A DNA stretch of 34,738 bases from an uncultured Pelagibacteraceae bacterium (GTDB lineage Bacteria > Pseudomonadota > Alphaproteobacteria > Pelagibacterales > Pelagibacteraceae), in contig CACBFE010000009.1 in NCBI GenBank assembly GCA_902538445.1, forward strand, positions 1-34,738. Reading direction: 5' to 3'. The translations under genes were made by a program, and so were the position numbers. Positions 17,332 to 22,283 of the stretch are shown here, piece after piece. The stretch's first letter is position 1; each line of letters opens with the position of its first letter. The notes beneath the pieces were generated by a model that was not told the DNA's origin, made no database searches, and saw only the letters and a program-made list of their open reading frames with translations.

Positions 17332-18066
17332 ATGAAATTAGAAGTTAAAAAACTTATAAAAAAATTCAAATCTACGATCGCAGTAAACAAGATTAGTTTC
17401 GAGATTAAAAAAAATGACACTTTAGGCCTTCTTGGTCCAAATGGTTGCGGCAAAACTACTTCTATTGGTATGATGTTAGGTTTAATAACACCTACAGAAG
17501 GTGAAATTTTTATAGACGGAATAAAATTAAATTCTAAAAATAGAATAAAGTTATTAAGTTCAATGAACTTTGCCTCACCATATATCGAACTTCCAAAAAA
17601 ACTTACAGTAAAAGAAAATTTGGAAGTTTATGCAAGATTATATAGTGTTAATAATAGGACTGAGAGAATAGAAGAATTAGTAGAAGACTTAGGTTTAAAA
17701 AAACTTTTAAATAAAAAAACTGGTGAGTTATCATCTGGACAAAAAAATAGAGTTTCACTAGCTAAATCTTTAATAAATAAACCCAAATTACTTTTTTTAG
17801 ATGAACCAACTGCCAGTTTAGATCCTGATATTGGTGATTTTGTCAGAGAATATTTAGAAAAATATAAAAATAAAAATGAGTTAACAATGTTGTTGGCCTC
17901 TCATAACATGGGTGAGGTAGAAAGGTTGTGTAATAAAATAATAATGATGAAACAGGGCACAATCGTTGATGAAGGTACATGTAGCGAGTTAATTGATAAA
18001 CATGGTAGAGAAAACCTTGAAGATACATTTCTTAAAATTGCAAGGAGTAAAGATGAATTGGCATAA
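17332..18066 (+). CDS. ABC transporter ATP-binding protein (ABC-2 exporter type)
   Basis: The 244-residue nucleotide-binding subunit has Walker A GPNGCGKTT (35-43), signature LSSGQ (133-137), Walker B LLFLDEPTASLD (153-164) and the switch His in LLASHNMGE. At the Q-loop the sequence reads NFASPYIELP where a Gln is usual, with Ser82 near that site. The permease of the next gene starts inside its last codons. Together they make an ABC-2 exporter similar in architecture to NodIJ and other lipid or glycan exporters. The cargo is unknown. It follows sua5 with no gap and lies upstream of a GT17 gene, which makes a glycan-related cargo conceivable but unproven. Confidence 0.9.
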   Translation: MKLEVKKLIKKFKSTIAVNKISFEIKKNDTLGLLGPNGCGKTTSIGMMLGLITPTEGEIFIDGIKLNSKNRIKLLSSMNFASPYIELPKKLTVKENLEVYARLYSVNNRTERIEELVEDLGLKKLLNKKTGELSSGQKNRVSLAKSLINKPKLLFLDEPTASLDPDIGDFVREYLEKYKNKNELTMLLASHNMGEVERLCNKIIMMKQGTIVDEGTCSELIDKHGRENLEDTFLKIARSKDELA

Positions 18067-18844
18067 AATTTACGCTTTAAGTTTAAGGCATATATACTTA
18101 ATAAAAGGATCATTTCCTAGAATTCTTGATTTGATTTACTGGCCAACAATTCAAATTTTTCTTTGGGGATTTATTTCTAAATTTTTCACGTTAAATTCAA
18201 CTTATTATGAAAATACAGTAGGTATAATTTTAAGTGCAGCAATTCTTTATGACTTTTTATTTAGATCTAGTATTAGTTATAACATGATGTTTCTCGAGGA
18301 AATATGGAGCAGAAATTTTACCAATCTTTTTATTGCCCCTATTAAAATCAGTGAAATTATTTCTGCATTAACTTTTACAGCTATTTTTAGAACTTTAATC
18401 GGTTTAGTTCCTGCTGCTTTTTTAGCTATACCTTTATTTGGCGTCTCAATTTTTAAAATTGGCCTTCCATTAGTTTTTCTTCTTGTATCTTTATATATCT
18501 TTGGAGTAACATTAGGTCTTCTTGTGACCTCTGGTTTAATTCGATTTGGACCATCTTTCGAAAATATCGCATGGGCAAGTTTATTTTTCTTAGCTCCACT
18601 TGGTTGTATTTATTATCCAATTGAGATTTTACCTGATTGGCTACAATCTATAGCGAAATTACTACCTTTAGTTCATCTGTTTGAGGAAATGAGAAGTATA
18701 CTTATTGATAATATTGTTAACTATTATGCTGTATTAAAAGCGTGCATTATTTCATTAGTATATTTTATAATAGGTATAATTGTATTTTATTGGTCTTACA
18801 ATGGAGCTAAATTACGCGGAACTCTGATCAATATGGGGGAATGA
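18053..18844 (+). CDS. ABC-2 type transporter permease
   Basis: From ATG 18053 (263 residues, MNWHKIYALSLRHIYLIKGS) the protein has about six hydrophobic helices and the ABC-2 permease layout: an N-terminal amphipathic start, IYWPTIQIFLWGFI, a cytoplasmic loop with EEIWSRNFTNLFIAPI, and a late LGCIYYPIEILPDWLQSIAKLLPL re-entrant segment typical of the family. AAGGAG at 18042-18047, five bases before the ATG, decides this start over an in-frame ATG at 17993. The gene overlaps the ATPase by 14 bases. The stop directly precedes the TTG start of the next gene. Confidence 0.9.
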   Translation: MNWHKIYALSLRHIYLIKGSFPRILDLIYWPTIQIFLWGFISKFFTLNSTYYENTVGIILSAAILYDFLFRSSISYNMMFLEEIWSRNFTNLFIAPIKISEIISALTFTAIFRTLIGLVPAAFLAIPLFGVSIFKIGLPLVFLLVSLYIFGVTLGLLVTSGLIRFGPSFENIAWASLFFLAPLGCIYYPIEILPDWLQSIAKLLPLVHLFEEMRSILIDNIVNYYAVLKACIISLVYFIIGIIVFYWSYNGAKLRGTLINMGE

Positions 18845-19543
18845 TTGCATAAATTTATCAAAAAAATAAAAAAATTTGAAACTAAACCATATGTAGTAAG
18901 AAAATTTTTAGATAATGAGGAAATTAAATCTTTTCAAAATCTTTATGAGGAACTTCCTGTAGAGATAAATAACACAAGACAAAAAATAATTAAAAAAAAA
19001 TGGTCATTAGAATTTAATAAAGACTTGCAAAAAATATATACTCAAAAATTAAAAAAAGTAATAGGTGAACATGAAATGGATAATCCTGAGACTAAAGAAG
19101 GTTCAAAAAGCTTAGGATTATTTCAAGAAAGCTATATGCCTGTAACATTGCATGTTGATACCGGATTTGACTTTGAAAAAACTATTTATAAACAAACTTT
19201 ATTACCTCTTACAAACACAGGTGAGACAATAATTTTTAAAAATCGATTTTATGGGTGCTCAACGACTTTTTCTATAGATCCTAAAGAATTATCTGCTAAG
19301 GGTTATAATAAAAGATCTTCAGAGCATCTCAAACTATTCGGGAGCCGTGACTTTGATAAAGAAACTTATAATGAATATTTGAAACATGAAGATATAAATA
19401 ATCTTAAGGGTTTGGAGGTTGATTTAATTTTTAAATGGAAATTAGGAGATTTGTTAGTTTTTGACCGAACACAATTACACTGCTCCTCAAATAATATAAA
19501 TAAAAAGAAACTTGGCTTTACAAGTTCTACAAAAAAAATATGA
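18845..19543 (+). CDS. Uncharacterised HxD...H protein, probable 2OG-Fe(II) oxygenase-like fold
   Basis: The 232-residue protein is not firmly recognised. It shows an LHVDTG segment (His103, Asp105), a distal His212 in FDRTQLHCSSNN and basic residues about ten positions later, which is the iron and 2-oxoglutarate ligand pattern of double-stranded beta-helix oxygenases (HxD...H...K/R). Beta-rich segments such as KQTLLPLTNTGETIIFKN and WKLGDLLVFD support that fold. The start is TTG at 18845, directly after the permease stop; GGGGGA in the permease's last codons can serve as ribosome site, and no ATG exists nearby in frame. The 3' end overlaps the GT17 gene by 4 bases (ATGA). A role in modifying a glycan or small molecule is inference from neighbours only. 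Confidence 0.55.
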   Translation: MHKFIKKIKKFETKPYVVRKFLDNEEIKSFQNLYEELPVEINNTRQKIIKKKWSLEFNKDLQKIYTQKLKKVIGEHEMDNPETKEGSKSLGLFQESYMPVTLHVDTGFDFEKTIYKQTLLPLTNTGETIIFKNRFYGCSTTFSIDPKELSAKGYNKRSSEHLKLFGSRDFDKETYNEYLKHEDINNLKGLEVDLIFKWKLGDLLVFDRTQLHCSSNNINKKKLGFTSSTKKI

Positions 19544-20355
19544 AATTAATTGATTGTTTCATGTATTTTGATGAAAATTTAATTCTTGATATAAGATTAA
19601 ATACACTTAAAGATCACGTAAATGAATTTGTAATTGTTGAAGCTAAAAAATCTCACTCAGGTAAAGAAAAAAAAATCAATTTTAAAATTGAGAATTTTCC
19701 AAAGTTTAAAGATAAAATTAAATATTTTTTAATTGATTTGCCTTCGAAAGTTGAGTCAAACAAAAAAGGTTGGCATAAAAGTCATATAAGAGATCAGTTT
19801 CAAAGAAATGCTTTAAAAAAAGGGTATGAAAATTCTAGTGATAATGATCTAATTATGATTTCCGATATAGATGAGATTCCTAATCCAAACAAAATAAAAG
19901 AATTCAATTTTGTTAAAAATAAATATGCGTGCTTTATTCAAAAAAATTTTCATTTGAAATTAAATCTTTTAAATAAAACTAAACAAAACTGGGCAGGAAC
20001 TAAAATATGTGTAAAAAAATATCTTAAGTCTCCTCAATGGCTGAGAAATTTAAAAACAAAAAAAAGACCCTTTTGGAAAATATACAAATCAAAAACTCCA
20101 CAACTCATTTTTGATGGAGGTTGGCATTTTAATGATTTAAAAGACGTTGATGGATTAAGGGCAAAAATAATGAGTAGTGCCCATCAAGAAGAAAATATTC
20201 CTGAAATAAGTGATTTAAAAAAAATATCATCTCGTTTAAATAATTTAAAAGATATAAGGGGTAGAAATTATGAATATAAAAAAGTAAATATAGATAATTC
20301 TTATCCTAAATATATAATAAATAATTTAAATAAATTTAAAGATTGGATTATATAA
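19540..20355 (+). CDS. Glycosyltransferase family 17-like protein
   Basis: The 271-residue protein begins MKLIDCFMYFDENLILDIRL and continues with EFVIVEAKKSHSGKEK, QRNAL and NDLIMISDIDEIPNP, the typical GT17 pattern. Asp109-x-Asp111 is the probable metal/nucleotide-sugar DxD motif. GT17 in animals is the bisecting GlcNAc transferase; bacterial members have unknown acceptors. A conserved-looking GGWHFNDL segment lies near residue 190. It has no membrane segment. It starts inside the stop codon of the HxD protein and ends 5 bases before the 2OG oxygenase gene, so it is central to a three-gene cassette. The sugar and acceptor cannot be predicted. Confidence 0.82.
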   Translation: MKLIDCFMYFDENLILDIRLNTLKDHVNEFVIVEAKKSHSGKEKKINFKIENFPKFKDKIKYFLIDLPSKVESNKKGWHKSHIRDQFQRNALKKGYENSSDNDLIMISDIDEIPNPNKIKEFNFVKNKYACFIQKNFHLKLNLLNKTKQNWAGTKICVKKYLKSPQWLRNLKTKKRPFWKIYKSKTPQLIFDGGWHFNDLKDVDGLRAKIMSSAHQEENIPEISDLKKISSRLNNLKDIRGRNYEYKKVNIDNSYPKYIINNLNKFKDWII

Positions 20356-20360
20356 AAATA

Positions 20361-21197
20361 ATGAATATTTTATCAAGCAAATTTGAAAATCTCGAAGAGG
20401 TGTCAAAAAAAAATATAAAACTTTATAAAGAGAACGCTCCTTTTCCTCATATTGTATTTGAAAACTTTTTTGAAAGTGGATTTTTAAAAAAGGTTTTAAA
20501 TGAGTTTCCTGATTTATCAAAAATTTCTAAAAGTGAAAAATATAATTCAAAAAATGAGGTAAAATTATCTTATAATCGATATGAAAATTTTTCTTATAAT
20601 ACTAAAATTCTTATTAACTTCCTAAATTCGAAAAAATTTTTGAATTTTTTAAATAACTTGACATCTGTGAGCGAGGAATTAATTGCGGATCCTGAATTAT
20701 CTGGAGGTGGTTTACATCAAATCAAAAGAGGTGGGGTTCTTAAAATTCATACTGATTTTAATAAACATCCAAAAATAGATATTGATAGAAGATTAAACCT
20801 TCTGCTTTACCTAAATGAAAATTGGCAAGAGTCTTATGGTGGTAAATTGGAATTGTGGGATAAAGATATGAAAAAAGCTGTCAAAAAAATTTCACCTGAT
20901 TTTAATAAAGTTGTAATTTTTTCTACTAATGACTTCAGCAATCATGGCCATCCTGAACCATTGGCTTGTCCAGAGAACACTTCTAGAAAATCAATTGCTT
21001 TATATTATTTTTCGAGTGGAAGGCCTGATAGTGAAATCAATAAGAATTTCGTAAAAAATACAACACGATTTAAGAATAGAGATGGCTATGATGAAGTTAT
21101 ACAAAAAAATGAAAAATTTAAAGACTTTTTAAGAGGATTTAAATTCTACAGATTCTTGAAAAATATTGAAAAAAAATATTTAAGAAAAAAAAAGTAA
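20361..21197 (+). CDS. 2OG-Fe(II) oxygenase (prolyl 4-hydroxylase-like)
   Basis: From ATG 20361 (278 residues) the protein carries the P4H-type jelly roll: GGGLHQIKRGGVLKIHTDFN with iron ligands His130 and Asp132, LNLLLYLNENW, YGGKLELWD, FSTNDFSNHGHPEPL with His195 as third ligand, and SRKSIALYYFS with Arg209 for 2-oxoglutarate. An in-frame TTG at 20343 overlaps the GT17 gene and is less likely. This subfamily is common in marine bacteria and cyanophages, generally with unknown substrate. The Lys-rich C-terminus (KKYLRKKK) ends 3 bases before the CCA end of tRNA-Arg. It completes the oxygenase-GT17-oxygenase cassette. Confidence 0.88.
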   Translation: MNILSSKFENLEEVSKKNIKLYKENAPFPHIVFENFFESGFLKKVLNEFPDLSKISKSEKYNSKNEVKLSYNRYENFSYNTKILINFLNSKKFLNFLNNLTSVSEELIADPELSGGGLHQIKRGGVLKIHTDFNKHPKIDIDRRLNLLLYLNENWQESYGGKLELWDKDMKKAVKKISPDFNKVVIFSTNDFSNHGHPEPLACPENTSRKSIALYYFSSGRPDSEINKNFVKNTTRFKNRDGYDEVIQKNEKFKDFLRGFKFYRFLKNIEKKYLRKKK

Positions 21198-21200
21198 TTA

Positions 21201-21278
21201 TGGTGCGCCGGATAGGAGTCGAACCCATAACCTCCGGAGCCGAAATCCGGCGCTCTATCCAGTTGAAGCTACCGGCGC
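21201..21278 (-). tRNA. tRNA-Arg (anticodon TCG)
   Basis: The reverse complement folds as a 78-base tRNA with encoded CCA (21201-21203). The acceptor stem is GCGCCGG/CCGGCGC, the D-stem GCTT/GAGC, the anticodon stem CCGGA/TCCGG with loop TTTCGGC giving TCG, and the T-arm ATGGG-TTCGACT-CCTAT. The 3' end faces the oxygenase/GT17 cassette. Its promoter must overlap the 5' end of rluD. Confidence 0.96.
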
Positions 21279-21302
21279 AAAGTGCATAATTTAAATCAAT
21301 TT

Positions 21303-22283
21303 ATGAATAATACAATTAAATTTTCTGTTGATAGAGAGAATAATGGCAAAAGATTAGATGTTTTTTTAGCAGGAAATATAAAAAAATTAACAAGATCATT
21401 TTTAAAAAAATTAATTGAAAATAAACAAGTCAAATTAAATAATAAAGTGCTTGAATTGCCATCGGCTAAAATCAAATTTAAGGATCTAATTATTGTCAAT
21501 TTTATTGAAAATAATGATCGACAAATTTTACCAAAAAAAATTGATTTAGATATAATTTATGAAGATAAAGATATTTTAGTAATTAACAAACCCAAGGGCA
21601 TGGTAGTTCATCCTGGAGCTGGAAATTATGAAAATACTTTAGTCAATGCCTTATTGTATAAATATAAAAGAAATTTATCTAATATTAATGGATTTTTGAG
21701 GCCAGGCATAATTCATAGAATAGATAAAGAAACGAGTGGATTGCTAGTTATTGCTAAAAATAATTTAGCTCATGCTAATTTAGGTGAACAGTTTAGCAGG
21801 CATACTATAAAAAGAAAATATCTTTGCCTATCTTGGGGAGTTGTGAGACCCTTAAATGGTAAAATTAGTACGTTAATAACAAGAGATAAAAAAAATCGGC
21901 AACTAATGTCAGTAAGCGATATAAGTGGGAAAAAAGCTATTACAAACTATAAAACTGTAAGAGTTTTTAATATTAAAAATATACCTAAGATAAGTTTGCT
22001 AGAATGTGAACTAGAAACTGGCAGGACACACCAGATCAGAGTTCATTTAAAATATAAAGGGTCTTCTTTGCTTGGAGATAAACAATACGGAAAAAAAAAT
22101 ATTAAATTTAAGAAAATAAATAATAATTTTTTTATTAAATTAAACGAGCTATCGGGTCAAGCTTTACATGCAAAAACTCTTGAGTTTTCTCATCCAAAGA
22201 CCAAAAAATGGATGAAATTTAATTCAGATCTTCCAAATGGTTTTAAAAAGATATTGGATTTGCTTGAAAATTTAACAGATTGA
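21303..22283 (+). CDS. rluD: 23S rRNA pseudouridine synthase, RluD family
   Basis: The 326-residue protein (ATG 21303; an in-frame GTG at 21282 is less likely) has an N-terminal S4 RNA-binding domain (NGKRLDVFLAGNIKKLTRSF, roughly 12-70). The RluA/RluD-type catalytic domain has INKPKGMVVHPGAGNYENTL, RPGIIHRIDKETSGLLVIAK with the catalytic Asp in HRID, and GRTHQIRVHLKY. RluD modifies helix 69 of 23S rRNA; RluC is the main alternative, but the HPGAG segment favours RluD. It is divergent from tRNA-Arg and lies 31 bases before rpoH. Confidence 0.9.
   Translation: MNNTIKFSVDRENNGKRLDVFLAGNIKKLTRSFLKKLIENKQVKLNNKVLELPSAKIKFKDLIIVNFIENNDRQILPKKIDLDIIYEDKDILVINKPKGMVVHPGAGNYENTLVNALLYKYKRNLSNINGFLRPGIIHRIDKETSGLLVIAKNNLAHANLGEQFSRHTIKRKYLCLSWGVVRPLNGKISTLITRDKKNRQLMSVSDISGKKAITNYKTVRVFNIKNIPKISLLECELETGRTHQIRVHLKYKGSSLLGDKQYGKKNIKFKKINNNFFIKLNELSGQALHAKTLEFSHPKTKKWMKFNSDLPNGFKKILDLLENLTD

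Follow-up and report, generated by a model that had tools for sequence, protein, structure and literature searches.

Between an ABC-2 exporter and a tRNA-Arg gene of a Pelagibacteraceae bacterium lie three tightly packed genes, encoding an oxygenase-like protein (OX1), a glycosyltransferase of family 17 (GT17) and a second oxygenase (OX2), and the question that this locus raises is which of these genes belong together. A sequence-only reading of the window, as we call the whole 34,738-nucleotide stretch of DNA analysed here, had proposed that the two oxygenases and the sugar transferase act as one unit. The source contig is part of a 909-kb SAR11 genome, and we compared homologous loci from Pelagibacteraceae single cells and MAGs. 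In our best reading the locus is a miniature replacement island beside tRNA-Arg that carries a matched oxygenase–GT17 pair, in one SAR11 genus.

Gene layout and predicted proteins

The gene order in the window is tsaC, abcA, abcP, OX1, GT17, OX2, tRNA-Arg(tcg), rluD and rpoH. On the forward strand, abcA (17332..18066; PF00005, 1.5e-32) encodes the exporter ATPase and serves as a chromosomal anchor outside the cassette, and abcP (18053..18844; PF01061, 2.6e-7) encodes the ABC-2 permease and forms the upstream flank of the variable site; the two genes are conserved together in the genus. Our re-checked coordinates bear out the packing and the exporter adjacency described in the sequence-only reading: no gap separates the end of abcP at 18844 from OX1 (18845..19543, forward strand, 232 aa), OX1 overlaps GT17 (19540..20355, forward strand, 271 aa) by 4 bases, and a gap of 5 bases precedes OX2 (20361..21197, forward strand, 278 aa from its ATG). 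The residues named there are also all present, namely HxD...H in OX1, DxD at 109-111 in GT17 and H130, D132, H195 and R209 in OX2. The downstream boundary of the variable site is the tRNA-Arg(tcg) gene found by ARAGORN on the reverse strand (21201..21278), whose position is identical across complete sites, and beyond it lies the conserved downstream flank outside the cassette, a forward-strand gene for an rluD-like pseudouridine synthase (21282..22283) assigned by synteny. A scan of the locus for promoters and terminators did no better than on shuffled sequences.

OX1 starts with TTG, an assignment supported by the ATG that most orthologs have at this codon. Its HxD...H triad consists of H103, D105 and H212, and it has the basic residue expected of a 2OG ligand, a role that likely falls to K222. 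All 23 OX1 orthologs compared have D105, H212 and K222, and at least 90% have H103; one ortholog (L023, 10001-10693) has Q in place of the metal ligand H103. Searches of OX1 against Pfam and NCBIfam gave nothing that passed the cut-off and those against PHROGs nothing significant; one ortholog matches WelO5 at E 0.02. Without a family profile match OX1 is not filed under a named family, which leaves its superfamily membership unaffected. An AlphaFold (AF2) model built from the 23 orthologs (mean pLDDT 91.6) agrees with the earlier suggestion that this first protein is an oxygenase: the best 50 PDB matches listed are 2OG-dependent enzymes with the double-stranded beta-helix fold (best E 4e-6), the closest being WelO5, HygX, SnoN, MysH and phytanoyl-CoA hydroxylase at about 8-14% identity. 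By predicted fold OX1 is a member of the 2OG-Fe(II) oxygenase superfamily.

GT17 matches PF04724 at 56.9 bits (2.5e-15; cut-off 26), and its residues D109, D111 and E112 are invariant, with both Asp residues of the DxD kept in 26 homologs. Its structure model (pLDDT 91.5) has a GT-A fold and resembles GT-A GlcNAc transferases, best of all the capsule enzyme KfiA. A GT17 paralog occupies another conserved spot in the window's own genome (L002) and at L122 and L125; in L002 and L125 it lies directly 3' of a different FkbM-like gene, and its neighbours in several genomes include a relative of OX2 and a tRNA-Gly gene.

OX2 is a P4H-class 2OG-Fe(II) oxygenase that matches PF13640 at 69.2 bits (6.3e-19; cut-off 27) and whose ligand residues, HxD...H...R, are kept in 20 homologs. 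We considered whether OX1 and OX2 could be recent duplicates and rejected this, as the two have no detectable profile similarity.

Linkage of OX1 to GT17

Of 169 genomes from the window's genus, many of which are incomplete, 108 contain OX1; among the 14 that are at least 90% complete, 11 do. We did not find it in the other genomes sampled from the order or in 289 class-level genomes, nor were homologs found in viral contigs or phages; among the genomes searched OX1 is a genus-restricted family. It falls into two types, A and B, with the window copy belonging to type A, and GT17 splits into two types in the same way.

We extracted 119 sites that are complete from abcP to tRNA-Arg, 118 from the genus and one from a sister genus. 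GT17 is present at every one of them and OX1 at 96 (about 80%), and at all 96 of these GT17 follows OX1. FkbM is found at 41 of the 119 sites, always between OX1 and GT17 and only with type B pairs, which frequently include it, and all sites lacking OX1 carry a type-A-like GT17. The type of OX1 equals the type of GT17 in 88 of 88 genomes, and the types of abcP do not match those of OX1 and GT17 (41/32/10/5). Distances between OX1 proteins also follow those between GT17 proteins (partial Mantel r = 0.755, p = 0.001, controlling for abcP, abcA and rpoH), a correlation that is significant within each type and weak in type B (r = 0.13), and the exporter genes compared with OX1 or GT17 gave partial r values of −0.07 to 0.18. 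In five genomes the pair is found again at a second locus, next to tig/clpP/clpX/lon, where its GT17 belongs to another subtype. Finally, at a minus-strand locus of genome G189 (L193) tsaC is followed by OX1-FkbM-GT17 without abcA-abcP in between. Taken together, adjacency, type match, correlation, the second locus and G189 tie OX1 to GT17 and not to the exporter: OX1 and GT17 are linked as a matched pair, and the earlier proposal of an oxygenase linked to the glycosyltransferase holds for these two genes.

Gene order at the second locus (L154, L185, L203, L227 and L229) takes the forms OX1-GT17, GT17-OX1, GT17-OX1-GT17 and OX1-GT17-GT17, and in L154 the locus lies after a glycosyltransferase-4 (WecA/MraY-type) gene.

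A matched pair might also be an obligate one, in which oxidation by OX1 would create the acceptor hydroxyl for GT17 on an envelope protein, lipid or sugar and the types would be co-adapted and unmixable; we consider this stricter form of the linkage doubtful. A similarly unlikely alternative centres on the exporter. By analogy with export of the Nod-factor or teichoic-acid type, OX1 and GT17 (with or without OX2) may act on whatever the neighbouring ABC-2 exporter transports, so that the exported product would be glycosylated and hydroxylated. At most genus sites abcP and the cassette do lie on the same strand, zero to few bases apart, and a weak residual co-variation with abcP is seen (r 0.16-0.18). 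However, this co-variation is small against the 0.755 for OX1 and GT17, the pair also occurs at another locus, and G189, an incomplete genome with a 65% abcP homolog on another contig, keeps OX1-FkbM-GT17 at a site without the exporter. The distribution of abcP also argues against the coupling: among 147 genomes of the order, 91 have a match, and all but four of these lie in the window's family, where abcP is near-universal; in other genera the next gene is rluD or another, and the cassette is missing there. The exporter is thus not co-inherited with the biosynthetic genes, and an exporter-linked biosynthetic operon is not supported, given that abcP is family-wide, co-varies little with the pair and is absent from the G189 site.

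Exchange at the site and the place of OX2

Mapped on the rpoH tree, the state of the cassette (A, B or none) shows 22 changes, close to the mean of 25.6 for shuffled labels, and on the abcA tree it shows 19; both are single-gene trees that may inflate such counts, and the figures are upper-end estimates. On the OX1 tree A and B change only once, and on the GT17 tree the cassette state changes six times. A breakpoint is also seen within the GT17 of the window (permutation p = 1e-4, genome G154 versus the nearest type-A relative). Over residues 1-180 the protein is roughly as similar to type-A relatives as to its counterpart in G154; over residues 181-271 its identity is 68% with G154 and does not exceed 52% with any other. 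The 119 sites share one position between conserved flanks, abcP and tRNA-Arg, and they hold alternative versions whose types disagree with those flanks; together with the GT17 breakpoint, these data show, at the level of sequence computation, that the cassette is exchanged between strains by recombination. The closest relative of the window's OX2 is likewise that of G154 (69-70%), whose site consists of GT17-OX2 without OX1. Since the C-terminal third of GT17 and the closest OX2 are both shared with G154, the window's OX2 and the 3' third of its GT17 probably entered together.

Minority cargo at the sites includes genes for an NAD-epimerase, a second probable glycosyltransferase, an SGNH-like protein, an FAD oxidoreductase, Gfo/Idh and radical SAM proteins; the labels of the second glycosyltransferase and the SGNH-like protein were assigned by eye, there being no Pfam match. 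A B12-binding radical SAM gene is 92% identical between L027 (11530-13212) and L238, with the neighbouring GT17 genes far less alike, which suggests a recent transfer of that gene. A tRNA-adjacent site with variable cargo is also what would be expected if unrelated single-gene insertions were kept near tRNA-Arg by position alone, and OX2 and the late cargo fit such hitchhiking. Against this, every OX1 gene in a complete neighbourhood has a GT17 gene beside it, whichever of the two loci or types is considered, and we regard position alone as a decidedly improbable explanation.

Relatives of OX2 are present in 22 of 169 genus genomes, mostly at other loci, and at five of the 119 sites, at three of which the gene is on the opposite strand; one of these opposite-strand copies (L117, genome G210) has in-frame stops or a frame break. 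The nearest solved chain to OX2 is OGFOD1 (6e-8). This closeness to OGFOD1/PHD-class protein hydroxylases, a weak similarity to the peptide oxygenase YhhC and the appearance of the lysyl hydroxylase/glycosyltransferase LH3 among the weak fold matches of the GT17 model would be consistent with hydroxylation-dependent protein glycosylation, in which, as in LH3, an oxygenase would place a hydroxyl group on a residue in a protein or peptide, to which GT17 would attach a sugar. We give this little credence, since OX2 is sporadic whereas GT17 is constant, since the oxygenase that is linked to GT17, OX1, has a fold like that of small-molecule and sugar oxygenases and shares no detectable profile with OX2, and since no gene for a substrate protein is conserved at the site. 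Least probable of all is a dedicated three-gene pathway of OX1, GT17 and OX2, for which the tight one-strand packing in the window speaks. Against it, the order OX1-GT17-OX2 occurs once in 119 sites, in the window only, OX2 is reversed at three of its five sites and stands without OX1 at one, and the GT17 C-terminus and OX2 are shared with a genome showing no OX1. The sequence-only reading therefore survives the neighbourhood comparison for the OX1-GT17 pair and fails for the trio and its two-oxygenase unit. A phage origin of the trio was rejected as well, the phage homologs of GT17 and OX2 being only about 30-34% identical and lying on separate records.

Proposed function and comparison with known systems

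Our preferred reading, to which we assign a probability of roughly 0.6, is that the OX1-GT17 replacement island decorates a surface glycan and is swapped by recombination. A surface glycan or glycolipid would receive a sugar from GT17, OX1 would oxidise that sugar or its acceptor by hydroxylation or related 2OG chemistry, and FkbM, where present, would methylate the product. Recombination in the conserved flanks would swap the cassette between strains and so change the surface and probably phage sensitivity, and the OX2 of the window would be a later addition that arrived with the 3' third of GT17. Modification of a surface glycan would suit a gene set that joins a glycosyltransferase to an oxygenase, often to a methyltransferase, and optionally to sugar-nucleotide enzymes. 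The optional neighbours of glycan type (NAD-epimerase, FkbM, Gfo/Idh and FAD oxidoreductase) fit glycan work too, but a small molecule, a lipid or a protein could equally be what GT17 modifies. From the gene types we infer an exposed surface structure as the product of the cassette; enzymatic activity, the order of the reactions, surface location and selection of the cassette by phages are putative in the same sense.

Few cells on Earth are as abundant as those of SAR11, which live under heavy phage pressure, and to our knowledge little has been described of the enzymes that alter their surface outside HVR2. A recombining two-gene module of oxygenase and glycosyltransferase is small enough for direct expression and assay, different surface chemistries relevant to phage sensitivity would be expected from its two types, which exclude each other, and OX1 represents an uncharacterised oxygenase family. 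Our literature searches found no oxygenase–GT17 system.

Each of the three proteins has known relatives. The namesake of glycosyltransferase family 17 is the eukaryotic MGAT3, and characterised members transfer GlcNAc to a glycan; the window protein likewise has an above-cut-off match, a DxD and a GT-A fold, but it is bacterial, is paired with an oxygenase and is predicted to transfer a sugar. With WelO5, HygX, SnoN, MysH and PhyH, OX1 shares the double-stranded beta-helix, HxD...H and a basic 2OG residue, and it differs from them in its identity of about 10%, its lack of a Pfam match and its confinement to one SAR11 genus. OX2 shares the profile and all ligand residues of the PF13640/OGFOD1-like P4H-class oxygenases and differs in its rare context beside GT17. 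As a gene neighbourhood, a cluster in Synechococcus phage RN05-S (PV261924) resembles the SAR11 site in having FkbM immediately 5' of GT17, within a nucleotide-sugar cluster that is bordered by a 2OG oxygenase gene. In contrast to the SAR11 site, this is a large nucleotide-sugar operon in a phage, its GT17 is about 29% identical, and no OX1 homolog was found in phages.

The closest parallel at the level of the whole locus lies in surface-glycan replacement islands exchanged by recombination, which are known from SAR11, where HVR2 is one, and from other aquatic bacteria (PMC4033161, PMC2217521, PMC7318151); SNP peaks at the island borders are their published signature, and glycosyltransferases encoded by pelagiphages are believed to change the O-chain of the host (PMC7029224). 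The HVR2 O-chain island spans about 48 kb between rRNA-gene flanks, whereas the OX1-GT17 site holds one to five genes between an ABC-2 exporter and tRNA-Arg and has a surface role that we infer. With HVR2 it shares a fixed location, conserved flanks, alternative gene versions, exchange between lineages and genes of glycan type.
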